Below are positions 34,896 through 52,429 of a DNA stretch of 64,000 nt, piece after piece. Both the position numbers and the translations under genes were made by a program. Each line of letters opens with the position of its first letter. Positions within the stretch are counted from its first letter, which is position 1. The stretch is from assembly GCF_900141935.1 (NCBI RefSeq), contig NZ_FQYX01000018.1, positions 1 through 64,000 of the forward strand. The letters are read 5' to 3'. The notes below the pieces were generated by a model. The model saw only the letters and a program-made list of their open reading frames with translations, ran no database searches and was not told the DNA's origin. Source of the stretch: Arenibacter nanhaiticus (lineage in GTDB: Bacteria > Bacteroidota > Bacteroidia > Flavobacteriales > Flavobacteriaceae).

Positions 34896-35212
34896 AATTG
34901 CTAGTTTTTATTTTGCAAAAATATGGTTTTTATGGTAAAGGTCTCCTGAAATCACATGATTTCCAAATTTTTATCATTATCTAAGATTTGTTTTAGGAAT
35001 TGTGAATATTTTAAAATAAGCCGATTTTATAGATTCAAATCCTTAGAAAGCACTCAAGATGCCATGGTAAATACATGAAATTTAATGGGCTGCAATAGGT
35101 AATTTGGCCTTTTACTTTTAATGCTGCAATTATAATCGAGACGGTAACCTGACAGTTGTCATGTTTTATCCCCAACTGCTGCGGTAAATTTGTTGGGAAC
35201 TAAAAATAAGAT
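34896..35212. other. Divergent promoter region upstream of hemN
   Basis: 317 bp with no coding frame. The right end carries the Fnr-like site and -7 element for hemN. I see nothing clear for the left-going kinase operon. Confidence 0.55.
35150..35192 (+). promoter_or_regulatory. Fnr-type site and promoter of hemN
   Basis: The dyad TGAC-AGTT-GTCA (35150-35161, extended CCTGAC...GTCATG) is followed by the -7 element TAAATTTG at 35185-35192. The dyad centre to first base of the -7 element is 29.5 bp, the same as at four other promoters in this window. This places the site near -41.5, the class II activator position. Confidence 0.8.
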
Positions 35213-36574
35213 ATGCGCAACCTAGTACAAAAGTATAATGTTCCCGGACCTCGTTACACCAGTTACCCTACCGTTCCCTATTGGAATTTGAATACTTTCT
35301 CCGGTCAAGATTGGAAAACGAGCGTACGAGAAAGTTTTAATGAAACCAACGAAAAAGAGGGGATTAGTCTTTACATCCATTTGCCTTTCTGTGAAAGCCT
35401 GTGTACTTTTTGTGGTTGCCATAAACGGATAACGAAGCGGCACGAAGTAGAAAACCCATATATATCCCATGTGTTAAAAGAATGGGAACTGTACTGTAAT
35501 CTATTCCCTAACAAACCAAAAATAAAGGAACTGCATTTAGGAGGCGGTACCCCGACCTTCTTTTCGCCAGAAAATTTAACGCGATTGATCAAAGGAATTT
35601 TTAAGGGTGCCGAAAGGGCAGAGGGCTATGAGTTTAGTTTTGAAGGACATCCTAATAATACGACTAAGGAGCATTTACAGACCTTATTCGATCTGGGCTT
35701 TAGGCGCGTGAGTTATGGGGTGCAAGATTATAATGGGAAAGTGCAAAAGGCCATTCACAGGATTCAGCCTTTTGAAAATGTGCAAAAAGTGACGCAATGG
35801 GCACGAGAAATTGGCTATACTTCGGTAAGCCATGATATTATTTTCGGTTTGCCATTCCAAAATGTAGCAGATGTAGCCCACACCATATTAAAAACAAAGG
35901 AATTAAAACCAGACCGATTGGCCTTCTATAGCTATGCCCATGTGCCTTGGTTAAAGGGGAATGGTCAAAGAGGATACCAGGATGCAGATTTGCCAACAGC
36001 AGAAGAGAAACGCATCCAATATGAAAAAGGGAAAGAATTACTGGTGGAAGTAGGATATCGGGAAATAGGAATGGATCACTTTGCAGTAACAGAAGACAGC
36101 CTTTATAAGGCCATGGAAAAAGGTAGCTTACACCGGAACTTTATGGGGTATACGGCTTCAAAAACTCAATTGATGTTGGGCTTAGGCGTATCTGCCATTA
36201 GCGATAGCTGGTCTGGGTTTGCCCAAAATGTAAAAAGCTTGGAAGAGTATGGCCACCTGATCGATAATAATATTATACCTATTTATAGAGGACACATGTT
36301 GTCGGAGGAGGATAAAATCATCAGAAAACATATTTTGGATATAATGTGTACCTTCAAAACAAACTGGGGCAGGGAACCCGAAATTTTAGCTGAATTGCCA
36401 CTGATAAAGGAAAAACTTAGGGAAATGTCTCTGGATGGTTTGGTGACTCTGTCAGATACAGGGGTGTCGGTAACGGATAAAGGAAGGCCGTTTGTACGGA
36501 ATATAGCCATGGCCTTCGATCTTTTATTGCATAGAAAGGAACCCAATACCAGATTGTTTTCCATGACTATTTAA
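35213..36574 (+). CDS. hemN: Oxygen-independent coproporphyrinogen III oxidase (radical SAM)
   Basis: 453-residue radical SAM enzyme that decarboxylates coproporphyrinogen III to protoporphyrinogen IX without oxygen. The [4Fe-4S] cluster motif is C60-x3-C64-x2-C67 in LPFCESLCTFCGC. Other HemN features are N-terminal VPGPRYTSYPTVPYW, ELHLGGGTPTFFSPENL, EGHPNNTTKEHL, GVQDYNGKVQKAIHRIQ and DHFAVTEDSLYKA. It is preceded by an Fnr-type promoter and followed by a universal stress gene, consistent with haem supply for the cbb3 oxidase under low oxygen. Confidence 0.97.
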   Translation: MRNLVQKYNVPGPRYTSYPTVPYWNLNTFSGQDWKTSVRESFNETNEKEGISLYIHLPFCESLCTFCGCHKRITKRHEVENPYISHVLKEWELYCNLFPNKPKIKELHLGGGTPTFFSPENLTRLIKGIFKGAERAEGYEFSFEGHPNNTTKEHLQTLFDLGFRRVSYGVQDYNGKVQKAIHRIQPFENVQKVTQWAREIGYTSVSHDIIFGLPFQNVADVAHTILKTKELKPDRLAFYSYAHVPWLKGNGQRGYQDADLPTAEEKRIQYEKGKELLVEVGYREIGMDHFAVTEDSLYKAMEKGSLHRNFMGYTASKTQLMLGLGVSAISDSWSGFAQNVKSLEEYGHLIDNNIIPIYRGHMLSEEDKIIRKHILDIMCTFKTNWGREPEILAELPLIKEKLREMSLDGLVTLSDTGVSVTDKGRPFVRNIAMAFDLLLHRKEPNTRLFSMTI

Positions 36575-36659
36575 TTCTCGGAGCTGAGAAAAACAACATA
36601 ATAGCAAGGGGCAGCGTTTTATAAGAGATGGATAGTAGTAAACGTAAAAATATAATAAG

Positions 36660-37481
36660 ATGAAAAAAATTATTGTACCGGTAGATTTTTCAAAACAATC
36701 AGAAATTGCGTTAAAAGCGGCAGCTTCCTTAGCTAGAAAAAAAGGTTCGGAAATCTTTGTGCTGCACATGTTAGAATTGTCGGCCGCCCTGATGACTTAT
36801 AATGAACATGCCCAATACGAGCATGCTACTTTTTTAATTAAATTGGCAGAAAAGAAGTTTGCTGCTTTTTTAAACAAACCATATTTGAAGGGACTAAAAA
36901 TCACCCCTATCGTCAAGCATCACAAAGTGTATAGTGAGGTCAATGAAGTAGTCGAAAAGCATAATGTCGATTTAATAGTAATGGGGTCTCATGGGACCGA
37001 CGGAATTAAGGAAATATTTGTAGGTTCTAACGCTGAAAAAATGGTTAGAAACTCCGAAATTCCCGTATTGGTCATTAAGGACGAAATTGAGGACTTTGAC
37101 GTAAAGCGTGTTGTTTTTGCCTGTGATTTCAAGGAAGAAAATATAGAGGCCTTCCAAAAGGCAATAGAATTCACCGATAAACTTTCTGCAAGCCTGTTTT
37201 TGGTGTTTATAAATACCCCGGGAGACAATTTTTTAAGCACATCCGATGCCTATACCAGAATATCTAAGTTTTTACAAAAGGCCTCGTCTGGACTAAAAGT
37301 AGAGATTTATAATGATTATAGTGTAGAAAGGGGAATTCATAACTTCAGTAATAGCATCAATGCAGATCTAATAGGAATGCCTACCCATGGGAGAAAAGGG
37401 TTAACCCACTTCTTTATGGGCAGTATTGGTGAAGATGTTGTGAACCATTCAAAAATACCGGTAATCACTTTTAAAATATAG
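36660..37481 (+). CDS. Universal stress protein, tandem UspA domains
   Basis: 273 residues with two UspA domains. The first has KKIIVPVDFSKQSEIALKAA and ends at LIVMGSHGTDGIKEIFVGSNAE; the second has RVVFACDFKEENIEAFQKA and ends at DLIGMPTHGRKGLTHFFMGS. The G-x2-G-x(8-9)-G-type nucleotide loop is recognisable in both. It is 85 bp after hemN with no terminator between them, so it is probably expressed from the Fnr-type hemN promoter. A second UspA gene follows fnr at 52.5 kb. The molecular role is not known. Confidence 0.9.
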   Translation: MKKIIVPVDFSKQSEIALKAAASLARKKGSEIFVLHMLELSAALMTYNEHAQYEHATFLIKLAEKKFAAFLNKPYLKGLKITPIVKHHKVYSEVNEVVEKHNVDLIVMGSHGTDGIKEIFVGSNAEKMVRNSEIPVLVIKDEIEDFDVKRVVFACDFKEENIEAFQKAIEFTDKLSASLFLVFINTPGDNFLSTSDAYTRISKFLQKASSGLKVEIYNDYSVERGIHNFSNSINADLIGMPTHGRKGLTHFFMGSIGEDVVNHSKIPVITFKI

Positions 37482-37524
37482 CAAAATAACCGCTAATGAA
37501 AGCAGGGTTTAATCCTGATAAGAT

Positions 37525-37568
37525 AAAAAGCCTCCTTAGGAAAACAACTTCCTGACGAGGCTTTTTTT
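37525..37568. terminator. Terminator between uspA and the haloperoxidase-like gene
   Basis: AAAAAGCCTC pairs with GAGGCTTTTT, with an inner AGGAA/TTCCT stem, then a T run. The A run on the left side makes it usable from both strands. Confidence 0.9.
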
Positions 37569-37615
37569 GTGATGTATAAAACCAAAAAATAATTGGCTTT
37601 TATTTTTTGAACAAA

Positions 37616-39091
37616 TTAAAGAGGGTTTTTGGGGTCGGTTTTTCCAATATGGTTTAGGTAAAACTTCCAGGCTTGATGGGCTACATCCCTTCCGAGTTGC
37701 AGGCCGGCCACATTGTCTGCCTGAATATGGTAACCTCCCATCACTCTCGATATACCCGCCAAATTAGCGGTTTCGGTAAAACTAGGGAATTTAATGGTTA
37801 CGGTATCTCCGACATTTTCGGGTTCGGTAAGTGCCCCAGGAACTAGCTGTACTTCTTCTCCGAAGAAATCGTCCCCCGTAAATAATCGTAAGGCTTCTGC
37901 ACACCCGCCGCTAATAGTACTATGACCGGAGACATAACTGGGAAAGGGAGGACAAAGAAATTCTTCGGGCGAATAGGGCTGCCATTCGCTTCCCTTAAGT
38001 TCTCCCCACCCTTGCTCGCGGCCTTTCCAGCCATTAATGACCATATCGGGGTAATACGCATGTACCAAGGCATATGGCCTGGCCGAATCATAATACATTT
38101 TAGCGTCCCAAGAAGCAATAAAGGCATCCATGGCCGTTATTTGTGTCAGGAAATACATTTTTACGTCCATGTCCAAAGTGTTGGCGTCCCTTCTAGAAAC
38201 GTCTTGGGCAAACTTAAGCCAATGTCCCGCTTGTTGAACAGATTGGGGACCGTCTCTCATAAACTCTACCAGGGCTTTTTCTTCTGGACTTAGGTTTGTC
38301 TGAAGGCTGATGACTTCTTTCACCTCTTTTTCCATTTGTTCAGAACCCACTAGTGGTGGTGGGCCAGGTCTAAACTGATCCGCTGATTGAAGGGCAATTG
38401 GTTGTACCTTGTTCCAAAAGGGAGTTAAACAACTAGGGGCAAATTTACCGCCCTTGCCATCGGAGAAATATTTTGGCTGCCAGCGATCTATATCCACATT
38501 AACATCTGGGCTGTTTATAGGTTGGTAGTTCGAATAATCGTAATAAGGGGTGCCATCAGACCCTGGCTCTTCTCCATGTTGGTTGGATCCATCAAATTTT
38601 CGAGCCTCTATTACTGCTTTCGCGGCAAGGTTGCCAATACCTTCGGGTGTTTTGGGGTCTAAGGAAGTATTATCGGGGTCCAGCCCTAATTCTACCATAA
38701 AGCTTCGGAATAAATCCTGGTCCGAATAGTAGTATTCGCTCAAAGTTCGGAAAGCGGCATAACTGATTGCTATTTCCTTTTGTTTTAAAGTCCGCTCAGA
38801 TTCAGCCTGCCTTTTTACGTCCTTTAAGTATACGGGAACCGCAGTATCGTCATAGACAGACCAAGCGTCGAAAATAGAAATAAAAATAAGTCCCAAATAA
38901 CGCGAAGTTACTGTAGGTCTTGGCTTAAATCTTTCCGTATCATTGGCGGTGGCCGTTAGAGCTATTTCTCCCCATTTATAGGCAAGGTTTTCGGCCCCTA
39001 CAGGTTCAAGGGAACTTTCCGTTTTTGGGTAGTTTTTGCAGCTCAACATAATAAATAGTGCACTGCAGAGTACTAATAATTTATTTGTCAT
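37616..39091 (-). CDS. Vanadium-dependent haloperoxidase/PAP2-like lipoprotein
   Basis: 491 residues with a lipoprotein signal (LVLCSALFIMLSC). The vanadate/phosphate-binding signature is spread over three parts: DAKMYYDSARP (Lys and Arg), PPFPSYVSGHSTISGG (Ser, Gly and His) and SRVMGGYHIQADN (Arg and His). The fold is shared by vanadium haloperoxidases and PAP2 acid phosphatases; length and motif spacing fit the haloperoxidase branch. Halide specificity, or phosphatase activity instead, cannot be told from sequence. It sits between hemN-uspA and the end of the cbb3 operon on the minus strand, without obvious functional link. Confidence 0.83.
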   Translation of the reverse strand: MTNKLLVLCSALFIMLSCKNYPKTESSLEPVGAENLAYKWGEIALTATANDTERFKPRPTVTSRYLGLIFISIFDAWSVYDDTAVPVYLKDVKRQAESERTLKQKEIAISYAAFRTLSEYYYSDQDLFRSFMVELGLDPDNTSLDPKTPEGIGNLAAKAVIEARKFDGSNQHGEEPGSDGTPYYDYSNYQPINSPDVNVDIDRWQPKYFSDGKGGKFAPSCLTPFWNKVQPIALQSADQFRPGPPPLVGSEQMEKEVKEVISLQTNLSPEEKALVEFMRDGPQSVQQAGHWLKFAQDVSRRDANTLDMDVKMYFLTQITAMDAFIASWDAKMYYDSARPYALVHAYYPDMVINGWKGREQGWGELKGSEWQPYSPEEFLCPPFPSYVSGHSTISGGCAEALRLFTGDDFFGEEVQLVPGALTEPENVGDTVTIKFPSFTETANLAGISRVMGGYHIQADNVAGLQLGRDVAHQAWKFYLNHIGKTDPKNPL

Positions 39092-39174
39092 TGGTTATAT
39101 AAAGAATAAATGTTAACAAAATGTAAATATATGGGATTGTGCAAAACTGGAAAAGAAGGTTTTTGTGAAATATT

Positions 39175-39879: not shown

Positions 39880-39931
39880 AGTTGTAATTAAAAGAGACGG
39901 GAAAAACCCAAAATAAATAGCGTTTTAAACA

Positions 39932-40378: not shown

Positions 40379-40494
40379 CGTCTTTGTTTTATTGGGAGGT
40401 TTTAAATACTCCCTGTGTTTGTTTTATGTTGCTATATTATTTGTCACCTCTTTATGCGATCCTTTAAATAGGGGGGCTAAGATGTGTCAAAACA

Positions 40495-41904
40495 TTACTT
40501 ATAACTTCTCGGTGCCAAAAACCGGGCCGTGGTAGTTTCAATTAAATCCTCACCACTGTACACGCCTATCCTAAGCTTGTCCTTGTCGCCATTTAAGGCC
40601 GAATTGTTTATTTCTATAAATAGGGTTCCTTCAGAAAGCCCTTGGGCCGGTACATTAAAATTTTCATGGGTAACCACTTCTATCTTTCCATTGTGGGAAA
40701 GTAGTTTAAAACTAACATCGTCAATAGTTCTGGTGGTTTTATTCAGTAATTTATAGGTGAACACATTACTGATAATGTTATTTTCTTTATGCTCGTACAA
40801 TTGGCCTGGTAGGCGAAGAATATTAGCTTCCAGATCGTTCCTTAAAAAAAGCATTCCCGCTAAAATTCCTGTCAGTATAAGCAGTACAGCACTGTATCCT
40901 TTTAATCTAGGGGTAAATGTAAAGGGCGTTTTCTTCTCTATGTTTTCCTCACTGGCGTACCTAATTAACCCTTTTGGTAAATGAACGTTCTCCATGATGG
41001 TATCACATTCATCTATACAAGCGGTGCAGTTAACACACTCTAATTGAGTTCCGTTTCTAATATCAATCCCGGTAGGACATACGTTGACACATTGGAAACA
41101 ATCGATACAATCGCCATGGCCAAGGGCCTGTCTGTCTTCTCCTTTTTTAAATTTCTTGCGACCATTCTTACCTTCTCCACGTTTGTGGTCATAGGCAACG
41201 ACGATAGATTTGTTGTCGAGCAATACTCCTTGCATTCTTCCATAGGGACAGGCAATGATACAGACCTGTTCGCGAAACCAGGCAAAAACAAAAAAGAATA
41301 CTGCGGTAAATATCAATAGGGACACCAAGGTGCTTATATGCTGAAACGGTCCCTGGCTTATATATAGTAACAACCTATCGCTTCCAATAAGGTACGCTAG
41401 GAAAACATTGGCTATTAGGAACGAAATGAAAAAGAAAACGGTCCATTTTAGGGCTCTTTTTTTGATTTTTTCGGCATTCCACCCCTGTCTATCCAATCGT
41501 TTTTGTGCTCCTCGGTCGCCATCTATCCAATATTCAACACGTCTAAAGACCATCTCCATAAAGATGGTTTGAGGACATAGCCATCCGCAAAAAATTCTTC
41601 CAAAAGCTACGGTGAACAGCGCTATAAAAACAACCCCTATGATCATAGAAAGCACAAAGAGGTAGAAGTCCTGTGGCCAAAACGGCAGGCCAAAGATGTT
41701 AAAACGTCTTTCTAAAACGTTGAACATTAAAAATTGATTGCCATTTATTTTTATAAACGGAGAGGCCAGTAGAAAAAGCAATAACGCATAACTAACATAT
41801 TTTCGATACTCGTACAGTGGGCCGCTTGGCTTTTTGGGAAAAACCCAAGCTCTTTTTCCCTCCTTATTGATCGTTCCTATTGAGTCCCTAAAATTTTCTT
41901 CCAT
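40495..41904 (-). CDS. ccoG: Cytochrome c oxidase accessory protein CcoG (FixG/RdxA)
   Basis: 469-residue polyferredoxin-like membrane protein. It has about five membrane segments, the GWLCPQTIFMEMVFRR motif, a conserved ACPYGRMQGVLLD segment, and two ferredoxin clusters: CIDCFQCVNVCPTGIDIRNG and CVNCTACIDECD. The C-terminal domain is IgG-like (periplasmic). CcoG acts in copper reduction and delivery for cbb3 assembly. It lies 47 bp after ccoP. Confidence 0.95.
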   Translation of the reverse strand: MEENFRDSIGTINKEGKRAWVFPKKPSGPLYEYRKYVSYALLLFLLASPFIKINGNQFLMFNVLERRFNIFGLPFWPQDFYLFVLSMIIGVVFIALFTVAFGRIFCGWLCPQTIFMEMVFRRVEYWIDGDRGAQKRLDRQGWNAEKIKKRALKWTVFFFISFLIANVFLAYLIGSDRLLLYISQGPFQHISTLVSLLIFTAVFFFVFAWFREQVCIIACPYGRMQGVLLDNKSIVVAYDHKRGEGKNGRKKFKKGEDRQALGHGDCIDCFQCVNVCPTGIDIRNGTQLECVNCTACIDECDTIMENVHLPKGLIRYASEENIEKKTPFTFTPRLKGYSAVLLILTGILAGMLFLRNDLEANILRLPGQLYEHKENNIISNVFTYKLLNKTTRTIDDVSFKLLSHNGKIEVVTHENFNVPAQGLSEGTLFIEINNSALNGDKDKLRIGVYSGEDLIETTTARFLAPRSYK

Positions 41905-41951
41905 GGCTAGTTGTTATCGCGCTGCTAAACGTGCTTTTAAATACTCTTTAT

Positions 41952-42830
41952 TTATGGTTCTTCGGTCCAAATTTCTCCTTCTGGATCTTTGGGGTTTGCC
42001 GGCGTTTGACCATGAAGGGCGTATACATAACTCGCTACTTGTGCTATTTCCAATGGTTTTAAGCTCTGTTTCCAGGCGATCATTCCTTTTCCGGCCCTAC
42101 CGCCTTCGGAAATAGTGCTAAAAATATTTTTGATTCCGCCCCCTATAATCCAATGGTCATCGGTAAGGTTAGGACCTATTCCACCACCGCCATCGGCCAT
42201 ATGGCAGGCCACGCAATTCGATTGGTAGATAGCCTCTCCAGCCTTAAGATCCGAAGCTTCGGTTAATACTTCTACGGTAGAAGCGTCGACCAACCCCTTG
42301 GCATTTTTCTTGTACTCGGCGATATCGATTTGGGCAGCAGCGACTTCTTTTTCGTATTCTACGTCCTGATTGTCACCGTTGAAGATGTGATACCTGGCCA
42401 TATAAACAATACCAAAAATGATGGAGGCATAGAACATATATACCCACCATGGCGGAAGGTTGTTGTCCAATTCTTTAATACCGTCGTAATTATGGTCTAA
42501 AATTATCTCTGCTTCTTCTTCCACTGGTTTGTTACCGGTCATTTTAGCCAATAAACGTTTTGCCCAGCCCCATTGGTAGGGTTTGGAACTATTGGCCAAA
42601 TACCGTTGCTGAGCCTCTTTAGAGAGGGTGTGGTACATGACATTCTCTATGGATCGTAGGATTAATTCTATCGCGATGAGAAGAAATAATACGAACAATA
42701 AAAAAAACAAGGTTATTGGATAGGCGATAAAGGCAGGTTGGTCTCCAGATTCAATCGCGAATTCCATCAGTCCAAAGATGAGGAAGAAGATTACGGGAAT
42801 TCTAATCCACCATGGCATATTATTTTTCAT
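41952..42830 (-). CDS. ccoP: cbb3-type cytochrome c oxidase subunit III (CcoP), mono-haem
   Basis: 292 residues. Two or three membrane segments occupy the N-terminal half (including LFFLLFVLFLLIAIELIL and WVYMFYASIIFGIVYMA), followed by one periplasmic cytochrome c domain with C206-V-A-C-H210 and the axial Met in GKGMIAWKQ. Proteobacterial CcoP has two haem sites; only one is seen here, as is usual in Bacteroidetes. It carries electrons to the catalytic subunit. The N-terminal extra membrane part is typical of the phylum. Confidence 0.94.
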   Translation of the reverse strand: MKNNMPWWIRIPVIFFLIFGLMEFAIESGDQPAFIAYPITLFFLLFVLFLLIAIELILRSIENVMYHTLSKEAQQRYLANSSKPYQWGWAKRLLAKMTGNKPVEEEAEIILDHNYDGIKELDNNLPPWWVYMFYASIIFGIVYMARYHIFNGDNQDVEYEKEVAAAQIDIAEYKKNAKGLVDASTVEVLTEASDLKAGEAIYQSNCVACHMADGGGGIGPNLTDDHWIIGGGIKNIFSTISEGGRAGKGMIAWKQSLKPLEIAQVASYVYALHGQTPANPKDPEGEIWTEEP

Positions 42831-43027: not shown

Positions 43028-45226
43028 TTAGTTTTGTGAGATTATTTCGTCGGTTTCTTTTATTTTGATATCCGTTCCCAAACGCTGTAGGTAGGCGATC
43101 AGGGATACGATCTCCCTATTTCTCATTTCTACAAATTCCTCCCCGTTCTCAAGGGCATATTTTTTGTCGGCCTCGTATGTTTTGGCAAAATCTGGATCGG
43201 CATACAGGTTCTTTTCGATCTGGGTAGCCTGTTCGTCCATCCAATTTTCGGCATTGGCAATTTCTTCTTCGGTATAAGGAACCCCAAGGTTAACCATGGC
43301 TTCCATTTTTCCTTGAATATTACTGCGGTCGTGTTCGTTGTGCACCAACCATTGGTAGGCCGGCATTATAGATCCAGAGGAGGTACTCTGTGGGTCGTAC
43401 ATATGGTTTAGGTGCCAGTTGTCCGAATACTTTCCGCCGACCCTTAATAAATCGGGACCTGTACGTTTGCTACCCCATAAAAAAGGATGGTCGTATACAA
43501 ATTCTCCGGCCTTGGAGTACTCTCCGTAACGTTCTACCTCGCTTCTAAAAGGTCTAACCATTTGTGAGTGACAACCAACACAACCCTCACGGATATATAA
43601 ATCCCTGCCCTCTAATTCTAATGGAGTATATGGCTTTACACTGGTAATGGTCGGAATGTTCGATTTTACCAAGATGGTCGGAACAATTTGTATGACCCCG
43701 CCTATTAATATAGCAATGGTTGCAAAAATGGTCAATTGAATAGGCTTACGTTCTATCCAAGTATGCCAAGTTTCTCCGGCCGTTCTTTTCTTGGATACCC
43801 TGGTCAAGGCAGGAGCTTCTGCCAATTCGTCCGCTACTTTAGTCCCCTTTTTTATGGTCAGGGCCACGTTATAGATCATCACGATAGCCCCAAGAATATA
43901 CATGCTTCCTCCAATGGCACGCATCCAGTACATAGGTATTATTTCGGTAACGGTTTCTAAAAAGTTTCCATAAACCAAGGTGCCGTCCGGATTAAATTCC
44001 TTCCACATAAGAGCCTGCATAAACCCGGCAACGTACATAGGCAAGGCGTATAAAATAATCCCTAGGGTGCCTATCCAAAAGTGAAAATTGGAAAGTGCGG
44101 TAGAATACATTTTTGTCTTAAACATTTTCGGAACCAACCAATAGATCATTCCAAAGGTCATAAAGCCGTTCCATGCCAAAGCCCCAACGTGTACGTGGGC
44201 AATAATCCAATCACTGAAATGCGCAATCGCGTTCACGTTTTTAAGAGAAAGCATAGGGCCTTCAAAAGTGGCCATTCCATAACCGGTAATCGCAACTACC
44301 ATAAATTTTAAAACAGGATCGGTCCGCACTTTGTCCCATGCGCCCCGCAGGGTCAATAAACCGTTGATCATCCCTCCCCAAGACGGAGCAAGCAGCATAA
44401 TAGAAAACGCTACGCCTAAGTTTTGCGCCCAATCCGGTAAAGAAGAATACAATAAATGATGCGGTCCGGCCCAGATATAAATAAAAATCAAGGACCAAAA
44501 GTGTACAATAGATAAACGATAAGAATATATAGGTCTGTTGGCCGCTTTAGGAACAAAATAGTACATCAGGCCCAAGAACGGCGTGGTAAGGAAAAATGCG
44601 ACCGCATTATGGCCGTACCACCATTGTACCAAAGCATCTTGTACCCCGGCATACACAGAGTAACTTTTAAAAGCACTTACCGGTAAGGACAAGCTATTAA
44701 AGATGTGAAGTACCGCTACCGTGACAAAAGTAGCCAGGTAAAACCAAATGGCGACATATAAATGTCGCTGTCTCCTCCTTAACATGGTACCAATAAGGTT
44801 CCAGCCAAAGGCTACCCAAACCACAGTAATAGCAATGTCTATAGGCCATTCTAGTTCTGCGTACTCCTTGGAAGAGGTATAACCAAGAGGTAGGGTAATG
44901 GCCGCGGCAACAATAATGGCCTGCCAGCCCCAAAAATTAAAGTTGCTCAGGGCATCACTGAACATTCTTGCCTTTAACAAGCGCTGAGTAGAATAATATA
45001 CCCCGGCAAAAATGGCATTTCCGATGAAAGCAAAAATTACGGCATTGGTATGCAAGGGCCTAAGACGACCAAAACTTAACCATGAAATACCATCGGTGAT
45101 ATTTGGAAATAGAAACATAAAGGCAAGCAGCAAGCCTACCGACATTCCTATAATTCCCCAGAACATTGTTGCATAGAGGAACTTTTTTACGATCTTATTA
45201 TCGTAATAAAACTGCTGTACTTCCAT
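43028..45226 (-). CDS. ccoN: Fused cbb3-type cytochrome c oxidase subunits I and II (CcoN-CcoO)
   Basis: 732 residues. The N-terminal 470 residues are the CcoN haem-copper subunit with 12 or more membrane segments and haem/copper His in PLHTNAVIFAFIGN, WWYGHNAVAFFLTTPFLG, YIWAGPHHLLYS and IIAHVHVGALAWNG. After a linker (TRVSKKRTAGETWHTWIE) a membrane anchor leads into the CcoO mono-haem cytochrome with C549-V-G-C-H553, SQMVRPFRSEVERYGEYS and the Met of SIMPAYQWL. The fusion is common in Bacteroidetes. It reduces O2 at high affinity and pumps protons. It begins just after ccoS. Confidence 0.97.
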   Translation of the reverse strand: MEVQQFYYDNKIVKKFLYATMFWGIIGMSVGLLLAFMFLFPNITDGISWLSFGRLRPLHTNAVIFAFIGNAIFAGVYYSTQRLLKARMFSDALSNFNFWGWQAIIVAAAITLPLGYTSSKEYAELEWPIDIAITVVWVAFGWNLIGTMLRRRQRHLYVAIWFYLATFVTVAVLHIFNSLSLPVSAFKSYSVYAGVQDALVQWWYGHNAVAFFLTTPFLGLMYYFVPKAANRPIYSYRLSIVHFWSLIFIYIWAGPHHLLYSSLPDWAQNLGVAFSIMLLAPSWGGMINGLLTLRGAWDKVRTDPVLKFMVVAITGYGMATFEGPMLSLKNVNAIAHFSDWIIAHVHVGALAWNGFMTFGMIYWLVPKMFKTKMYSTALSNFHFWIGTLGIILYALPMYVAGFMQALMWKEFNPDGTLVYGNFLETVTEIIPMYWMRAIGGSMYILGAIVMIYNVALTIKKGTKVADELAEAPALTRVSKKRTAGETWHTWIERKPIQLTIFATIAILIGGVIQIVPTILVKSNIPTITSVKPYTPLELEGRDLYIREGCVGCHSQMVRPFRSEVERYGEYSKAGEFVYDHPFLWGSKRTGPDLLRVGGKYSDNWHLNHMYDPQSTSSGSIMPAYQWLVHNEHDRSNIQGKMEAMVNLGVPYTEEEIANAENWMDEQATQIEKNLYADPDFAKTYEADKKYALENGEEFVEMRNREIVSLIAYLQRLGTDIKIKETDEIISQN

Positions 45227-45229
45227 AAA

Positions 45230-45445
45230 TTACAATTTTTGACTTTCTTTTATTTGGATTGATTTGTTTTTGGGTGTTGGTAGCTTTTTGTCGGGATTAA
45301 CAACTAATTCATCTTCAAAAAGCATGCGGACCGATGGAGTGTAGGCGTCATCGTATTGTCCGTTTTTTACGGAGAGCAAAAAAGCGGCAAAAAAAACTAT
45401 GGCCACAATAATACTTAAGGTCAATAATAAATAAATAGCACTCAT
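45230..45445 (-). CDS. ccoS: cbb3-type oxidase assembly protein CcoS
   Basis: 71 residues with an N-terminal membrane segment (MSAIYLLLTLSIIVAIVFFAAF) followed by the CcoS hallmark SVKNGQYDDAYTPSVRMLFED. CcoS is needed for cofactor insertion into the oxidase. It is the first gene of the cco operon here, right after an Fnr-type promoter, and is separated from ccoI, its usual neighbour, by about 3.7 kb. Confidence 0.92.
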   Translation of the reverse strand: MSAIYLLLTLSIIVAIVFFAAFLLSVKNGQYDDAYTPSVRMLFEDELVVNPDKKLPTPKNKSIQIKESQKL

Positions 45446-45464
45446 CCTTTTTTTTATTTCGGGG

Positions 45465-45507
45465 TAAAACTACCATGGCCATTTCTAGGAAAATATGACA
45501 TTTGTCA
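45465..45507 (-). promoter_or_regulatory. Fnr-type site and promoter of the cco operon
   Basis: On the minus strand, CCTGAC-AAAT-GTCATA has its TGAC/GTCA dyad at 45496-45507, followed by the -7 element TAGTTTTA at 45472-45465. The centre-to-element distance is 29.5 bp, identical to the hemN, ccoI, fnr and uspA promoters. Predicted transcription starts about 10-15 bp before the ccoS start codon. Confidence 0.8.
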
Positions 45508-45766
45508 GGTTTCGATTTTTGGATCAAAAAAAAGGAGGCACCCCTTGGAGATAATGCAATGCTAAAACCACCAATATTCTCCTGATAACAGCATTTTTTG
45601 GATCGCAGAAAAAAAATAAATCCGTTTATAAACGTATTTTTTACGTGTTTTATCGCGATTTCAAGGGGGGTATGTCTAAAACACTGTTAATTTGGGGGGT
45701 AGAATGTTAATTTTATCAATAATTTATTAGAATTATTATTAGATTTGTCTCTTTTGACAAAAAAAT

Positions 45767-45790: not shown

Positions 45791-45833
45791 ATCGTTTTGC
45801 CAATTAAATTAAATTCACAAATTGCAATAAAAA

Positions 45834-48485
45834 ATGTTTAGAAAAACCGGTTATTTATTTTTGACAAGTTTGTTGTTGGCCAGTTGCCAGCAGAAAAAAG
45901 AAGTGGTGTGTACTCCAAGTGATACTGCTATCAATTATCCTTCGGGCGATTCCCTTGCCAATGTCCTTAAGTGGCCCGATGATTTAAAAATAACCGGTTT
46001 TTCTGGTCCCGATGTGAACCCTAGTCCAGCATGTATGGCAGTATCGCCTACAGGAGAAGTGTTTGTTGGGGTAGATATGATGGGGTCCCTAGGAAAAGAT
46101 ATGGGAAAAGGATTCATTAAGCGTTTGGTAGATTGTAACCATGACGGAATTATGGATTCATATACTGAGTTTGCCCGCGTAGATAACCCTCGTGGTATTT
46201 TGGCTATTGGGAACCAGGTGTTTGTGCTTCATACTACGTTTACCGAAGAAACTAAAAAAGCCAACAATATGGATTTGATTGTTTTTGAGGATGTCGATAA
46301 CGATGGGGTGGCCGATGGACCAGCGAAAGTACTGATCAAAAACATCAGTAACTCCAAATACCTACAGGAAAGAGGTACAGACCATGCTACCAATGGTATC
46401 CAAATGGGTATTGATGGGTGGATTTATATCGCTGTGGGCGATTTTGGTTTCCACAATGCAACCGATGCAGAAGGAACACAGTTGACCATGTTAGGTGGTG
46501 GAATCGTACGAGTACGCCCCGATGGAACAGGAATGGAAGTGTATACCCACGGTCTTCGTAATATTTACGATGTGGCTATCGACCCGTTCATGAACATGTT
46601 CGTTAGAGGGAACACCAATGATGGTGGAGGATGGAATATCCGTTTCTCCCACCAAATTCAATCGGCAGAATATGGGTATCCTATGTTGTTCAAGCACTTT
46701 ACGGAAGAAATTATTCCCGCTTTGGCCGATTTGGGTGGAGGGTCTGGAACAGGGGCTCTTTACATGAACGATGACCGTTGGCCAGAGAATTACAACAATG
46801 TGCCAATGATGGCCGATTGGGGAAGAAGCTATTTATATTTCCACAGAGTGACCAAAGACAAGGCTAGCTTTACCCAGGAAGTAGAAGATTTTATACAATT
46901 GCCACAAATTACCGATGTCGATGTCGATGGTGGTGGTGCCATGTACCTTTCTGCTTGGGATGGTGCCGGATATTCTGGTAGTCCTGACAAGGGGTATGTA
47001 GTGAGGGTAACCCCTAAAGATTTCAATTATGAGCCACTAGAAAATGTAGCCGATATTTACTGGACCAATGATGTGGTTGCCTTGTTAAAATCCGGGAATG
47101 CCAAGACTAGACAAAGCGCCCAATACGAATTGTTAAGAAGAGGGAAAGGTGCCGATGCCGTTTATAAATTGGCTAAGAATGCCGACCTGTCCCTAGAAGT
47201 ACGTACAGCAAGTATCTTTACTTTTGCACAACTTACCGGAGTAGAAGGGATAGAGCGTTTGGTAGCGCTGACCGAAGATGCGGCCGTTCAGGAATTTGCC
47301 CTTAGAGCTTTGGCAGACCGAAAAGAAAATATAGCGAATGTTCCAGTAGAACCATTCTTAAAAGCACTTAAATCTGGTTCGGACCGTGTAAAAGCTGCCG
47401 CTATCGTAGGATTGGGCAGATTGGGAAGACAAGAAGCTGTCAATGACTTATTAGAAGTTGCCGTTCCCGATTCTTTTGTGGCACCTGAATTAAATACAGA
47501 AGGTCCGCATGCCACCCCGAATTCTGATATCGTGCTACCTCATTTGGCAGTAAAAGCCTTGGTAAGCTTAAACGCTGTAGATGCTGCTGTGAAGGCCTTG
47601 GATACGGATAGGAAAGATTTGGCCCTATGGACACTTAGATACATGCATAGCCCTGTAGCTGTCGATGGCTTGATAAACGCCTACGAAAACACTACAAATC
47701 CAACGTATAAAAGAGCGTTGTTGAATACGCTTGCGCGACTTTATTTCCAAGAAGCTGATTATGATACTTCATGGTGGTGGAGTACCCGTCCAGATACCCA
47801 TGGTCCATACTACAAAACTGTAGAATGGGATGAGACGGCTAAAATCCGCGATTTTATGATGGCCGAGTGGGAGAAGGCTAGTGATAACGAAAAATTATTC
47901 TATTCTGAGCTAAACGTTAAATATCGTTTGGGAATCGATGATTTTGGAACGATTGAACAGTCAGCGCCAAAAGTAGATTTACCGGTGATGGATCTTGAGA
48001 AAATCAAGAACAAAAAAGGCCAGGTAGGAGAATCTTCTATCGAAGATATTATGTTAGCCCTTCAAGAGGTGAAAGGCGATGCCTCTAAAGGAGAAGCCAT
48101 ATTTAAATCTCAAGCTTGTTTTACTTGCCACAGCTTAAAGAGTAGCGAGACAATGAAAGGGCCGTTTATGGGACAGATTGGTTCTATTATGAACAGAGAG
48201 CAGATAGCCGAATCGATAATTAAACCTAATGCGTCTATTTCTCAAGGCTTCTCTACCGTACAGATAGAGACCAAGGCAGACGACTTCTATGTAGGGTTTA
48301 TTACCCAGGAATCTGCCAGCGATCTAACGATCACGAATATCGCTGGAGTGCCAACCAAATTAAAGAAATCGGACATCGCTTCTAGGAAGGAATTGGAAAC
48401 TTCCATGATGCCTGCCGGATTGGTGAATGCCTTGAGCTTCGAAGAATTAGCCTCTTTAATTGCCTTCTTGGAAAATCAGAAATAG
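45834..48485 (+). CDS. PVC-type haem-binding lipoprotein with beta-propeller, HEAT repeats and cytochrome c
   Basis: 883 residues with a lipoprotein signal (LFLTSLLLASC). Residues of about 45-395 resemble a glucose/sorbosone-dehydrogenase-like propeller (SPTGEVFVGVD, EDVDNDGVAD, GTDHATNGIQMGIDGWIYIA, GLRNIYDVAIDP). Residues of about 400-560 have HEAT-like repeats (RQSAQYELLRRG, VKAAAIVGLGRLGRQEAV). A C-terminal cytochrome has C762-F-T-C-H766 within EAIFKSQACFTCHSLK and a PAGL Met downstream. It shares its architecture with the 3248-5488 protein but is longer. It is inserted between ccoI and ccoS in the opposite direction. It may be a periplasmic or surface dehydrogenase feeding electrons to cytochromes; the substrate is unknown. 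Confidence 0.85.
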   Translation: MFRKTGYLFLTSLLLASCQQKKEVVCTPSDTAINYPSGDSLANVLKWPDDLKITGFSGPDVNPSPACMAVSPTGEVFVGVDMMGSLGKDMGKGFIKRLVDCNHDGIMDSYTEFARVDNPRGILAIGNQVFVLHTTFTEETKKANNMDLIVFEDVDNDGVADGPAKVLIKNISNSKYLQERGTDHATNGIQMGIDGWIYIAVGDFGFHNATDAEGTQLTMLGGGIVRVRPDGTGMEVYTHGLRNIYDVAIDPFMNMFVRGNTNDGGGWNIRFSHQIQSAEYGYPMLFKHFTEEIIPALADLGGGSGTGALYMNDDRWPENYNNVPMMADWGRSYLYFHRVTKDKASFTQEVEDFIQLPQITDVDVDGGGAMYLSAWDGAGYSGSPDKGYVVRVTPKDFNYEPLENVADIYWTNDVVALLKSGNAKTRQSAQYELLRRGKGADAVYKLAKNADLSLEVRTASIFTFAQLTGVEGIERLVALTEDAAVQEFALRALADRKENIANVPVEPFLKALKSGSDRVKAAAIVGLGRLGRQEAVNDLLEVAVPDSFVAPELNTEGPHATPNSDIVLPHLAVKALVSLNAVDAAVKALDTDRKDLALWTLRYMHSPVAVDGLINAYENTTNPTYKRALLNTLARLYFQEADYDTSWWWSTRPDTHGPYYKTVEWDETAKIRDFMMAEWEKASDNEKLFYSELNVKYRLGIDDFGTIEQSAPKVDLPVMDLEKIKNKKGQVGESSIEDIMLALQEVKGDASKGEAIFKSQACFTCHSLKSSETMKGPFMGQIGSIMNREQIAESIIKPNASISQGFSTVQIETKADDFYVGFITQESASDLTITNIAGVPTKLKKSDIASRKELETSMMPAGLVNALSFEELASLIAFLENQK

Positions 48486-48511
48486 GACTTTCCTAAGCCA
48501 ATACATTTTAT

Positions 48512-48557
48512 AAAATCACCCGCTTTTCTTAGGTTAGAAAGGCGGGTGATTTTTTTT
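48512..48557. terminator. Terminator after the haem lipoprotein gene
   Basis: AAAATCACCCGC and GCGGGTGATTTT form a 12-bp perfect stem with an 18-base loop, then a T run. Confidence 0.9.
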
Positions 48558-49135
48558 GTCCTATCTGTTCTAATTTATAAATCTGCGAAGCCTTATCATT
48601 ATAATAAGGGCGTTCCCTCCTTCGTCGGGCGGGCTATTGGCTATATCCCTTGCTCCGCTGCGGGGATGCCGCCGCTATCCCTAACGCTGTTTCAGTGAAC
48701 CATTAGCAACTAACCATAAAAAAGTTGAATTTTCCTGACGAGCCTTGTCCGGTTTGAGCCATTAATTTCAGTATTGACGAACAGTTTTTATGAATTATTG
48801 TTTAAAGACACCCCTCCTAAAGGGGTGTTCTTAACCACAACCACAATACAGTCCTGCCTGCCTTCTAAGAAGTTTTTTATTGGTTTTTAGTAGCTGTTAA
48901 ATATTGTTTTCGGTCTCCATCGCTAGCGGGAGTGTCGCGCTCGTGCCCGTTTTAAAAAGAATAGGAAGACAGCAATAATTTTGAAAGCTCCTATCTTTTA
49001 AATACCGGCAAGTGGCTTTGTGCAGTGCGTTTACTTTCCGAATAGGACGGCAATAGAGGTTTAGTCATAGGATCGCGAAGTACTTTGTCTATCCATTCGC
49101 AACCACCACGATTTTTTCTAGCCCTAGGGAGCCTT
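48558..49135. other. Intergenic region between converging genes
   Basis: 578 bp with no coding frame. It holds the 80-bp repeat copy B and a hairpin ACACCCCT-cctaa-AGGGGTGT at 48808-48828 that could end the ccoI transcript about 300 bp after its stop, although the T tract is weak. Confidence 0.5.
48608..48687 (+). repeat. 80-bp dispersed intergenic repeat, copy B
   Basis: Begins GGGCGTTCCCTCC and ends TATCCCTAACGC. It is collinear without gaps with copy A (905-984) and with the reverse complement of copy C (54546-54625); it is closest to copy C. Confidence 0.88.
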
Positions 49136-51514
49136 TTACGAGGGTAGTTTTTTGGCCAACAAATTGGTGGCTACCGTGGTAAACAAGACAATGCTGATAG
49201 AGCTTAGGGGCATTAATATCGCCGCTATAACAGCTTCTAACTGTCCGGTTACCGCAAAGTATAGGCCAACGGCATTGTACATGAGCGAAAGCATAAAACT
49301 AAGTCGTATAATACGAATGGCTTTTTTAGAAGCGGTAATATATTGGTACAAGTGCCTTAAGTTTTTGGCGTCTAAAATTCCGTCACAGGCAGGCGAAAAA
49401 ACGTTAACATTTTCGGAAATGGCAATGCCTACATCACTTTGTGCCAAGGCCCCGGCATCGTTTAATCCGTCGCCTAGCATCAGCACCTTTTTACGGTTGT
49501 CCTGTAGCCCGCGGATAAATTCCATCTTATCATCGGGTTTTTGGTTAAAATAAAGTGGGGTGCCTTTTGGGGTTAGTTGTTCTAACCGAGCTCTTTCCCC
49601 GGCATTATCGCCCGATAAAATGGAAATATCCAAGGTTCGGGACATCTCCTTAAAGAGCTCTGAAATTCCTTTTCTATACTCATTGTGGAAAAGAAAACTT
49701 CCCTTATACCTGTCGTTGGCACTGATATGTACCGAGGTGGTCTCTAAGGAGTTGGTTGCCGTATGCCCCACATAATGGGCAGAACCTATTTTAATACGGT
49801 CCTGAGCCTTGGTGCCCATAAGGCCCTGGCCAATGTTTTCTTCATAATCGTCCAAGGTTATAATATCATGGGCATCGAGCAAATCATACAGAGAGCGGCT
49901 CAAGGGATGGTTTGACGACCGGAGGGTGTTTTTTAAAAGGGATTCTTCCGCTGCTGTTAGGGCTATGCCTTCGTAACAAATATTACTTTTTTTAGGAGCG
50001 GTGATCGTTCCGGTTTTGTCAAAAATAACAGTATCTATTTTTGCCAATTCCTCAATGGCTCGAGTGTCCTTTAAATAAAATTTCTTGCGTCCAAATATAC
50101 GGAGCATGTTCCCCAGGGTAAAAGGTGCTGCCAAGGCAATGGCACAGGGACAGGCAATAATAAGGACCGCCGTAAAAACATTGATGGCCTTACTGGGGTC
50201 TTTAACCAACCAAAAGGAGGTAGCTATAACAGCAATACTTAAAACAGTAATCGTAAAGCGCTTGCCTATGCTATCGGTAATGTTCTCAAAGCCGGTCGAT
50301 TTGTCCTTATCAAAAATGGCATTGCTCCACAATTGCGTCAGGTAACTTTGGGAAACAGATTTTAACGCTTCCATCTCAATGGCGCTTTGTAACTGTTTGC
50401 CTCCGGCATATACCTTATCGCCCGAAAACTTATGTACCGGGTCCGATTCTCCCGTGACAAAACTGTAATCGATTCTAGCATTTCCAGAAAGTACAACCCC
50501 ATCGACCGGAATTAATTCCTCATTTCGGATAAGAAGTCGGTCGCCTTTCTTAATATCGTATACCTGTACACTTACTTCTTTGTTGTTTTTGGTTATTTTG
50601 GTGACGGCTATTGGGAAGTAGGATTTGTAATCGCGTTCAAAAGAAAGGTAGGAATAGGTTTTCTGTTGAAAAAACTTCCCCAATAATAGAAAGAACACCA
50701 GACCGGTAAGGCTATCAAAAAAACCCGCGCCCAAATCAAAGATAATTTCCATGGTACTGCGCAAAAACAAGACTATAATCCCCAAAGCTATTGGGACGTC
50801 CATATTTAAGATTCTAGAGCGCAGGCCCTTGTAGGCAGCCTTAAAATAACCCTGGGCGGCATAGAAGACCACAGGCAAAGAAAAGGCAAACATCAACCAG
50901 CGAAAAAAGCCCTTATATTGTTCAAGCCAAAATTCGCCTACTTCAAAATACTCGGGAAAAGAAAGGAACATAACATTGCCAAAGGCAAAGCCAGAAATTC
51001 CCAATTTGTATAGTAAACTACGGTCGACGCCCTTCTTTTGAGGCTCCATGTCATCTAAGGAAATATAGGGTTCATACCCTATTCTCGAGAGCAAAACCAC
51101 CAGTTCTTTCAGACTTGCCTTGGTTTTATTAAAGCTAATGCGAACCGTTTTCTTGGGGAAATCGACCTGAGAACTGTTAATGGCAGGGTGTAGTTTGTTT
51201 AAATTTTCCAAGATCCAAATACAGGAACTACAATGAATGTGGGGGATGTAAAGGTTTATAATCTGTAGGGTGCCATCATTGAACTCCAATAGCTTTTCCA
51301 GGATGGGCTGGGACTCCAAAAAATCGTATTTCCCTGCTATTTCCTTTGGGGTAGCCCCCGCAGCGGATTGCAATTCGTAGTAGTAGGATAGGTCATTGGT
51401 AGCGAAAATATCATAGACCGTTTTACAACCATTACAACAAAAATGTTTGTCCTCCTGCGCAATTGGACTGTTGCCGCAATCGTCCCCGCAATGAAAACAC
51501 AAAGTCTTAGCCAT
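49136..51514 (-). CDS. ccoI: Cu+-transporting P-type ATPase for cbb3 assembly (CcoI/FixI)
   Basis: 792 residues from the ATG at 51514; a TTG further upstream extends the frame to 51571, but it would run into the Fnr site. N-terminal Cys clusters (CFHCGDDCG and FCCNGCKTVYDIF) precede a heavy-metal-associated domain with IHCSSCIWILENL. Eight membrane segments carry the ion motif CPC in ACPCAIALAAPF. Cytoplasmic motifs are TGESDPV, DKTGTIT, HPLSRSL and MLGDGLNDAGAL. CcoI exports copper for insertion into the oxidase. It shares the region with the divergent fnr gene and has an Fnr-type promoter. It is split from the rest of the cco operon by an inserted gene. Confidence 0.95.
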   Translation of the reverse strand: MAKTLCFHCGDDCGNSPIAQEDKHFCCNGCKTVYDIFATNDLSYYYELQSAAGATPKEIAGKYDFLESQPILEKLLEFNDGTLQIINLYIPHIHCSSCIWILENLNKLHPAINSSQVDFPKKTVRISFNKTKASLKELVVLLSRIGYEPYISLDDMEPQKKGVDRSLLYKLGISGFAFGNVMFLSFPEYFEVGEFWLEQYKGFFRWLMFAFSLPVVFYAAQGYFKAAYKGLRSRILNMDVPIALGIIVLFLRSTMEIIFDLGAGFFDSLTGLVFFLLLGKFFQQKTYSYLSFERDYKSYFPIAVTKITKNNKEVSVQVYDIKKGDRLLIRNEELIPVDGVVLSGNARIDYSFVTGESDPVHKFSGDKVYAGGKQLQSAIEMEALKSVSQSYLTQLWSNAIFDKDKSTGFENITDSIGKRFTITVLSIAVIATSFWLVKDPSKAINVFTAVLIIACPCAIALAAPFTLGNMLRIFGRKKFYLKDTRAIEELAKIDTVIFDKTGTITAPKKSNICYEGIALTAAEESLLKNTLRSSNHPLSRSLYDLLDAHDIITLDDYEENIGQGLMGTKAQDRIKIGSAHYVGHTATNSLETTSVHISANDRYKGSFLFHNEYRKGISELFKEMSRTLDISILSGDNAGERARLEQLTPKGTPLYFNQKPDDKMEFIRGLQDNRKKVLMLGDGLNDAGALAQSDVGIAISENVNVFSPACDGILDAKNLRHLYQYITASKKAIRIIRLSFMLSLMYNAVGLYFAVTGQLEAVIAAILMPLSSISIVLFTTVATNLLAKKLPS

Positions 51515-51534
51515 ACCATATAAATTTAAAGTAG

Positions 51535-51608
51535 CAAAGATGTCATCAAAGGTTTTTAGAAAACATGACAACCGTCAGGTTTTAAAGAAAGCGCTTCCTT
51601 TAATTTTG
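51535..51608. promoter_or_regulatory. Shared Fnr-type site with divergent ccoI and fnr promoters
   Basis: One dyad TGAC-AACC-GTCA at 51566-51577 serves both directions. On the plus strand a perfect -7 element TAATTTTG lies at 51601-51608; on the minus strand CATCTTTG (7 of 8) lies at 51542-51535. Each is 29.5 bp from the dyad centre, predicting activation (or autoregulation) of both genes from one site. Confidence 0.82.
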
Positions 51609-51631
51609 TCCCATCAGCGAAATTTATAGCT

Positions 51632-52318
51632 ATGAGTAGATGTGAAAATTGTATCATTCGCCAGTTTAATTCCCTACGTGCAATGAGCAAGGAAGAATTA
51701 AAAAAGGTGTCCGATACAAAAACAACCAAATTGTTTAAAAAGGGAGAAACCATTTTTGAGGAGAACGAGAAACTCAACGGAGTGTTTTGTGTGCGCAATG
51801 GGGTATCCAAACTTTCCAAATTAAGTCCTAACGGCAAAGACCAAATTGTAAAGTTGGCCTCTAAAGGGGCGGTCTTGGGGCAGCGCTCGGTGATCGTTGA
51901 AGAAATATCCAACCTTAGTGCCGTGGCCTTAAACGATATGGAAGCTTGCTTTATTCCCAAAAATGCTATTGTTAATACCCTTAATGCCAATCCTAATTTT
52001 GCAGTGGAAGTCCTTAGGCATATGGCACACGATTTAAAGGAAGCAGACGATGTAATCGTCAATATGTCCCAAAAAACCGTAAAACAACGGGTCGCAGAGG
52101 CCTTTATTTATCTTAAAAACAATTTCGGCGAGGATAAGAACGGCTATCTGGCCCTCACCTTATCGCGTGAGGATATCGCCAATGTCGTTGGCACCGCTTC
52201 CGAATCGGTCATCAGGATTATTTCGGAATTCAAAAAAAAGGGACTGATAAAAACCTTTGGAAAAAAAGTAGCGATTGTAGACCCCCAATCCTTAAACAAT
52301 TTGGCCGAAGCCATATAG
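51632..52318 (+). CDS. Crp/Fnr-family transcriptional regulator
   Basis: 228 residues. The N-terminus MSRCENCIIRQFNSL has C4 and C7, resembling the start of the Fnr [4Fe-4S] cluster motif; further Cys occur in VFCVRN and MEACFIP. Whether four form an oxygen-sensing cluster is not certain, as the third N-terminal Cys of E. coli FNR is not in its usual place. A cyclic-nucleotide-binding-like beta-roll is followed by a long dimer helix (MAHDLKEADDVIVNMSQKTVKQRVAEAFIYL) and a winged HTH whose recognition helix GTASESVIRIISEF keeps the Glu and Arg that read the GA/TC part of Fnr/Crp sites. This fits the TGAC-N4-GTCA dyads seen nearby, including one in its own promoter. Confidence 0.9.
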   Translation: MSRCENCIIRQFNSLRAMSKEELKKVSDTKTTKLFKKGETIFEENEKLNGVFCVRNGVSKLSKLSPNGKDQIVKLASKGAVLGQRSVIVEEISNLSAVALNDMEACFIPKNAIVNTLNANPNFAVEVLRHMAHDLKEADDVIVNMSQKTVKQRVAEAFIYLKNNFGEDKNGYLALTLSREDIANVVGTASESVIRIISEFKKKGLIKTFGKKVAIVDPQSLNNLAEAI

Positions 52319-52386
52319 TACTTTTTTACCGTTGTATGGCAAGCTCTTAATTCATGTGAAATATGCCCTGGCCGGGGAGTAAAACC

Positions 52387-52429
52387 TGACTAAAGTCATA
52401 GTTTCAGGACCCAACTTCTTCTAGTTTTA
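52387..52429 (+). promoter_or_regulatory. Fnr-type site and promoter of the second uspA gene
   Basis: CCTGAC-TAAA-GTCATA has its dyad at 52387-52398, and the -7 element TAGTTTTA, identical to the cco element, lies at 52422-52429. The distance is again 29.5 bp. Confidence 0.78.

Follow-up and report, generated by a model that had tools for sequence, protein, structure and literature searches.

A 64,000-nucleotide stretch of the Arenibacter nanhaiticus genome (the window, hereafter) carries hemN, a cbb3 oxidase cluster led by ccoS, a divergent ccoI/fnr pair and a universal stress protein gene (usp), and raises the question of whether one oxygen-responsive regulator controls them all. An earlier note on this DNA had proposed an Fnr-type regulon with five promoters at one spacing, and comparisons within the genome, its bacterial family and its phylum support that reading. 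We put at roughly three in four the probability that these genes form an autoregulated microaerobic regulon under the Fnr-like protein encoded at 51632-52318, with oxygen sensed through a putative four-cysteine [4Fe-4S] cluster. At low oxygen this protein would dimerise, and the dimer would bind AAnCTGAY-N4-RTCATnTT centred at -41.5, where it would contact sigma-A RNA polymerase on the Bacteroidota -7 box, TAnnTTT(G/A). The genes activated would be those for the cbb3 oxidase (ccoS-NO-P), a copper pump (ccoI), anaerobic haem synthesis (hemN), the universal stress protein and fnr itself. The cluster would be held by C4, C7, C53 and C106, the beta-roll C53 taking the place of the canonical third N-terminal cysteine. 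Binding, activation, the low-oxygen signal and the [4Fe-4S] cluster are what we infer from the comparisons below.

The underlying observation of dyads and -7 elements is confirmed. The dyad pattern TGACNNNNGTCA, searched in the window and set against 100 shuffles, matches four times (shuffle mean 0.33, maximum 3; none of the 100 reached four), at the places where the four TGAC-N4-GTCA dyads had been described and nowhere else in the window. All five -7 elements begin 29.5 bp from the dyad centre, that is, after a 23-bp gap, as claimed. The longer form CCTGAC-N4-GTCAT(A/G) is indeed present in four of the five promoters (hemN, ccoS, ccoI and usp); at the fnr promoter the ccoI site is read in the opposite orientation, as CATGAC-N4-GTCAGG. 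The ccoI element lacks the initial T and is an imperfect fifth element. The sites, -7 elements and genes are as follows.

35146..35165, plus strand: predicted activator site of hemN, AACC-TGAC-N4-GTCA-TGTT (dyad search; kept in relatives)
35185..35192, plus strand: -7 element TAAATTTG of hemN; predicted start 35197, leader 16 nt
35213..36574, plus strand: hemN, oxygen-independent coproporphyrinogen III oxidase (TIGR00538 above cut-off)
45492..45511, minus strand: predicted activator site of ccoS-ccoNO and onward (dyad search; kept in relatives)
45465..45472, minus strand: -7 element TAGTTTTA of ccoS; predicted start 45460, leader 15 nt
45230..45445, minus strand: ccoS (TIGR00847 above cut-off)
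43028..45226, minus strand: fused ccoN-ccoO, cbb3 oxidase subunits I/II (NF011053 above cut-off)
41952..42830, minus strand: ccoP (FixP N-terminal domain and cytochrome c)
40495..41904, minus strand: ccoG/fixG-like ferredoxin (domain scan)
51562..51581, no single strand: predicted activator site common to divergent ccoI and fnr (dyad search; kept in relatives)
51535..51542, minus strand: -7 element CATCTTTG of ccoI; predicted start 51530, leader 16 nt
49136..51514, minus strand: ccoI, heavy-metal P-type ATPase, named from its setting (profile match; start reassigned)
51601..51608, plus strand: -7 element TAATTTTG of fnr; predicted start 51613, leader 19 nt
51632..52318, plus strand: Fnr-like activator, 228 amino acids (profile, alignment and fold matches)
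52383..52402, plus strand: predicted activator site of usp (dyad search; kept in relatives)
52422..52429, plus strand: -7 element TAGTTTTA of usp; predicted start 52434, leader 42 nt
52458..53393, plus strand: universal stress protein, usp (listed frame)

Two of these gene starts differ from the listed frames: the listed ccoI frame starts at 51571 and overlaps the site, the likely start being 51514 (MAKTLCFHCG), and usp likely starts at TTG 52476, not at 52458.

Could such palindromes arise by chance in AT-rich intergenic DNA? The bare dyad lends this some colour, as it is not enriched genome-wide (26 places vs 25 for the reversed control). Only the dyad with a -7 element at gap 23 is in excess: ten of the 18 dyad and TANNTTT pairs found at gaps of 10-36 in the genome fall at gap 23 (binomial p about 2e-10), and the reversed control produced four pairs in all. 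When one mismatch was allowed, 30 sites were found at gap 23 vs nine in the reversed control. Within the window, an exact TANNTTT lies at the 29.5-bp offset on four of eight dyad sides; the chance of at least four of eight at one offset is 5e-7 to 5e-6 with 61 offsets allowed for. A chance origin, whose probability we consider negligible, was rejected on the reversed-pattern controls, these offset and gap probabilities and the conservation over orthologous promoters described below.

Outside the window, gap-23 sites (exact or with one mismatch) occur upstream of nadA, a small cytochrome c, a YceI-like and a thioredoxin-like protein, a short protein that matches no Pfam family, and several Usp-like genes, the last identified by reading the sequence and without a domain scan. 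One exact site (C80) falls within a reading frame and could be a chance occurrence.

Crp/Fnr activators in class II promoters bind at -41.5. The dyad centre takes this position in all five promoters, for predicted starts, when the -7 box is placed as in Flavobacterium psychrophilum, at -12 to -5 (PMC9723704, in the excerpt available); class II spacing near -41.5, as had been suggested, holds with this published position. Such geometry also bears on the idea that the sites are genuine and serve repression or another promoter arrangement, which we regard as very improbable. Crp/Fnr proteins can repress as well, but here one fixed -7 distance is kept over hundreds of sites. Moreover, the same excerpt on F. 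psychrophilum reports that oxygen limitation strongly induces the cbb3 oxidase, and haem synthesis enzymes as well (PMC9723704).

Conservation was assessed at the fnr locus in the best 80 of 579 named relatives (Arenibacter, Maribacter, Muricauda, Flagellimonas, Cellulophaga and others), which are related and not independent. Counts of TGAY-N4-RTCA followed by TANNTTT at gaps of 0-60 bp gave 215 pairs at gap 23, with 32, 14 and 11 at gaps 0, 9 and 17 and between 0 and 8 at each remaining gap. The gap-0 peak is probably the conserved tail of the dyad; the minor peaks at gaps 9 and 17 are without explanation. Where a conserved site is defined as a dyad with at least four of five -7 matches upstream of a located gene start, it was found for ccoS in 74/74 loci, usp in 78/79, ccoI in 76/79 and fnr in 59/80, the denominators counting only loci with a located gene start; for two control genes the counts were 0/7 and 0/9. 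For hemN, the comparison took in the best 30 of 58 matching family genomes, each from another genus, and 26 of the 30 have the site with a -7 element at 29.5 bp. All five promoters thus passed the test of conservation in related genomes that the earlier note had itself named, and the microaerobic theme it saw in the targets was borne out by the sites kept on the cbb3 (74/74), copper pump (76/79) and hemN (26/30) genes. In alignments of all loci, most spacer columns carry 0.0-0.8 bit and the first two 0.6-1.5; the AA/TT dyad flanks and the last -7 base carry 1.2-2.0 bits, though they lay outside the search conditions, with one exception among the flank columns at ccoI (0.6 bit) and one at fnr (0.5 bit). 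None of five paralogue loci had a site upstream.

The pattern extends well beyond these loci. Across 120 family genomes, A. nanhaiticus included, 27 gaps were compared for TGAYNNNNRTCA-N23-TANNTTT and its equivalents, yielding 1850 sites at gap 23 vs a mean of 226 at the 26 other gaps (8.2-fold); the reversed control gave 139 at gap 23 vs a mean of 169. The excess ratio was 8.8 in the 71 genomes with a strong Fnr match, 9.45 in the 32 with only other Crp/Fnr matches and 1.11 in the 17 without any Crp/Fnr match. By these ratios the excess goes with having a Crp/Fnr homologue, and one of either kind seems to be enough. Since genomes with other Crp/Fnr matches and no strong orthologue keep the site class, the site alone does not name its regulator.

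At two places outside the window, C27:57889-60458 and C49:18114-20445, the same genome encodes a second candidate regulator, a receiver-CRP fusion whose gene comes after that of a PAS histidine kinase (the Pfam scan covered the two kinases and the C27 fusion). Around the fusions lie genes for a phosphotransacetylase, a cation ATPase, Hsp20, a phosphoribosyltransferase, an M50-CBS protease and a DUF302 protein, an ATP-cone match below cut-off, and Usp-, AckA- and PfkB-like genes identified by reading. Many genes of these islands carry TGAY-N4-RTCA at the same 23-bp gap, partly under a looser -7 rule, and a receiver-CRP regulator beside a PAS kinase therefore apparently uses the same site class, a sharing which again means that site presence does not identify the regulator. 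The Usp-rich islands, also outside the window, span C27:36505-71071 (L092, L093) and C49:14859-24694 (L103). We take their gene set to resemble the mycobacterial Dos regulon; the likeness to the DevR/DosR and OsdR dormancy regulons concerns these fusion islands and not the window. The output domain of DevR/DosR is of LuxR type, whereas that of the fusions in this genome is CRP.

It is accordingly conceivable that the window sites are held mainly by the receiver-CRP fusions (C27, C49), phosphorylated by the adjoining PAS kinases, with the Fnr-like protein secondary. Both fusions adjoin genes with the same site class and spacing, the 9.45-fold excess comes from genomes with only other Crp/Fnr matches, and nine of those 32, picked from the listed matches by fusion-length frames and by frame length alone, have 168 sites vs 12.1 expected (13.9-fold); of the three that were among the hemN loci, G056 and G007 have the hemN site and G053 lacks it. 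We nonetheless judge this arrangement distinctly unlikely, as nine genomes whose sole P0001 match is the Fnr discussed here have 122 sites vs 16.2 expected (7.5-fold). Adding two weaker one-match genomes (G020, G043) gives 127 vs 19.2 (6.6-fold). Four of the nine (G008, G057, G068, G106) have a site adjacent to fnr, and six have an opposite-strand site at a distance of 2.48-2.92 kb from fnr, where the ccoS start would be expected beyond ccoI by distance only; G012 and G024 had no site in the stretch scanned beside fnr. In the window itself, fnr sits between ccoI and usp and has its own site.

What the putative Fnr operator looks like was determined from 287 promoter sites of relatives (574 half-sites; ccoI and fnr share a dyad, and some half-sites are counted twice). 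The half-site consensus is [C/A]TGA[C/T], with the fourth base of TGA[C/T] being C in both halves of 74/287 sites and T in both halves of 70/287. The base before TGA is T in only two of 574 half-sites; at the promoters of ccoS, usp and ccoI the promoter-distal half has C there (201/228) and the proximal half A (228/228), and the polarity of C and A in the 51562-51581 site points toward ccoI. FNR recognises TTGAT through the motif E..SR. The contrast with the TTGAT of Escherichia coli FNR that had been drawn from TGAC stands in that the half-sites do differ and the 5' T is lost, but TGAC is not distinctive, given that relatives have C or T as the fourth base. TGAC as a specificity change of its own was rejected, as relatives use C and T alike. 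TGAC half-sites are published for HcpR, whose site in Geobacter and related genomes is TTGAC-N4-GTCAA (PMC1274295, in the excerpt available). Nor does the fourth base evidently separate Fnr sites from those of the receiver-CRP fusions, among the sites listed for each, compared by eye. On the protein side, the recognition helix keeps the E and R of FNR and has I194 at the column of the FNR serine, a substitution which may explain the loss of the 5' T.

52202..52216, plus strand: recognition-helix residues E191...I194-R195 (E191, I194 and R195 invariant in 29/29)

The Fnr-like protein has an FNR-like fold, with residues 3-225 aligning to residues 28-252 of Aliivibrio fischeri FNR over its full length. 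The model has a mean predicted local distance difference test score (pLDDT) of 84, its best fold match being 2gau (template modelling (TM) score 0.85), with holo-FNR 5e44 at TM 0.76; the best NCBIfam model of an Fnr subfamily, NF008365, scored 98.3 bits, below its cut-off of 228. Its only invariant cysteines are C4, C7, C53 and C106 (29/29 relatives; alignment A1 omits L061, one of 30 loci, whose start is uncertain).

51641..51652, plus strand: codons 4-7 with C4 and C7 (CX2C), aligning with the first two N-terminal FNR cluster cysteines
51788..51790, plus strand: C53 codon, invariant beta-roll cysteine and proposed displaced third ligand (alignments, tree)
51947..51949, plus strand: C106 codon, aligning with the beta-roll cluster cysteine of FNR (which we take to be C122 in E. 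coli)

The column of the third N-terminal FNR cysteine is occupied by N13, and C53 faces an alanine. A canonical FNR was rejected, as the N-terminal CX2CX5C pattern is not present (the third cysteine is absent and C53 is invariant) and the operator also differs. In the model C53 lies on strand 50-56 and C106 on strand 103-109, which should be neighbours according to jelly-roll topology.

A census of 170 aligned rows, which are redundant and include the window sequence twice and 79 of the 80 named loci, found CX2C with C53 and C106 in 152. Another 12 rows have CX2C and C106 without C53, all of them with another cysteine within 10 residues of CX2C; all four cysteines are lost in five rows, and one has C106 alone. 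In the phylum sample only, an extra N-terminal cysteine occurs in 10/27 proteins with C53 vs 7/7 without (Fisher p 0.007, uncorrected for kinship). In the maximum-likelihood phylum tree of 68 rows, the 49 proteins with all four cysteines fall under one fork together with the five that have lost all four and the A. fischeri row, with moderate support (81/85). Of the 13 proteins with a third N-terminal cysteine, 11 form another well-supported group; the remaining two, the A. fischeri row and L246, are long branches of unsure place, as is L247. The losses of all four fall on two separate branches, L227-L230 (family f2, of the same order) and L241 (family f10). A paralogous subfamily of the same bacterial family (L200-L204, L239, L243-L245) has CX2CX4C with the beta-roll cysteine and no C53, an FNR-like ligand spacing one residue shorter.

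As the four cysteines are kept or lost as a set, they most likely serve one shared cofactor, for which [4Fe-4S] seems the likeliest given the FNR alignment and the low-oxygen targets; the arrangement can be read as a putative variant [4Fe-4S] site with a displaced ligand. Alternatively, the protein could bind and regulate as proposed and sense through a zinc site, a thiol-disulfide switch, haem or a small ligand. Its cysteines do not have the canonical FNR spacing, and four conserved cysteines can bind zinc. The Bacteroidota Crp/Fnr proteins HcpR and PgRsp are reported to bind haem, and the available excerpt of PMC12750200 describes the Porphyromonas gingivalis HcpR as haem-dependent. Such sensing appears unlikely, since C4, C7 and C106 match cluster ligands of FNR in the alignment, the set of four is retained or lost as a whole, and the targets are low-oxygen genes.

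Several results weigh against an Fnr-controlled, cluster-sensing regulon. Besides the unenriched bare dyad, 49 of the 120 family genomes have no strong orthologue, the fnr direction is without a site in 21 of the 80 named loci, and the hemN site is present in five of eight genomes without a strong Fnr as well as in 21 of 22 with one. Farther out, a site lies upstream of the gene, in either direction, in 10 of 15 distant orthologue loci and in only 3 of the 40 loci sampled across the phylum. Because another Crp/Fnr type uses the same site class, some of the window sites may belong to the receiver-CRP. Regarding the protein, model residues 1-6, C4 included, have pLDDT below 50, and 11 of the 152 C53 proteins also have an extra cysteine near CX2C, so C53 and a third N-terminal cysteine are not strictly exclusive. 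Moreover, L246 (an extra cysteine at +8, no C53) and L247 (only C106) fit the cysteine classes poorly.

Compared with known systems, the regulator has in common with FNR of E. coli and A. fischeri (5e44, 5cvr) a full-length Crp/Fnr fold, an N-terminal CX2C, a beta-roll cluster cysteine, TGA half-sites with an N4 spacer, a centre at -41.5 and microaerobic targets. It differs in N13 for the third N-terminal cysteine, the extra invariant C53, I194 for the serine of E..SR, the half-site [C/A]TGA[C/T] in place of TTGAT and the Bacteroidota -7 box. The FnrL/FixK regulons of Alphaproteobacteria comprise the cbb3 oxidase, its copper pump and anaerobic haem synthesis. This target theme is alike, whereas motif and cysteine arrangement are not, and in A. 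nanhaiticus the activator gene adjoins ccoI and shares its site. HcpR, also of the Crp/Fnr family, has TGAC half-sites with an N4 spacer but keeps the 5' T and targets hcp and frdX (PMC1274295, in excerpt). CrpPg of P. gingivalis (2gau; PMC12040651, in excerpt) belongs to the same phylum and is the top Protein Data Bank match by sequence and fold, but has tyrosine and leucine at the C53 and C106 columns of the alignment. CRP/FNR homologues in a Flavobacteriales metagenome-assembled genome from an anammox reactor, of the same order, were predicted to sense carbon sources by similarity to MalR, and the excerpt available of that source mentions neither an oxygen role nor a comparable operator (PMC8510549).

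Among the matches listed from open-licence PubMed Central, titles and abstract openings described neither this flavobacterial Fnr and its operator nor the C53 arrangement or the receiver-CRP islands, and had little on how Bacteroidota, a large phylum that has its own -7 box, adjust transcription to oxygen. New points would be the proposed displacement of a cysteine ligand, the fixed spacing on Bacteroidota promoters and the sharing of an operator class with a kinase-linked CRP. The site and its spacing provide a ready rule for predicting low-oxygen regulons in this bacterial family. If C53 is a cluster ligand, FNR-type sensors are possible with another ligand set, which would bear on how FNR clusters tune their oxygen sensitivity. 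On a broader scale, we hold the odds even that there is an FNR class, widespread in Bacteroidota, with the third ligand moved from the N-terminal loop to C53 on a beta-roll strand beside C106 and one spacing-locked operator common to the kinase-controlled receiver-CRP, such that cluster and phosphorelay would converge on -41.5 promoters. The convergence of Fnr and receiver-CRP on one operator class is directly testable.

Other genes stand beside those considered here. A second universal stress protein gene (36660-37481) lies downstream of hemN and itself has no exact dyad, and between this pair and the cco cluster a haloperoxidase-like frame (37616-39091) has PAP2 and VCPO second-domain matches. 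Adjoining ccoS is a gene for a large haem-binding CxxCH protein (45834-48485; TIGR02603), with a site upstream in 0/7 relatives scanned. Next to usp, positions 53547-54242 encode a NUDIX and NrtR winged-helix regulator.

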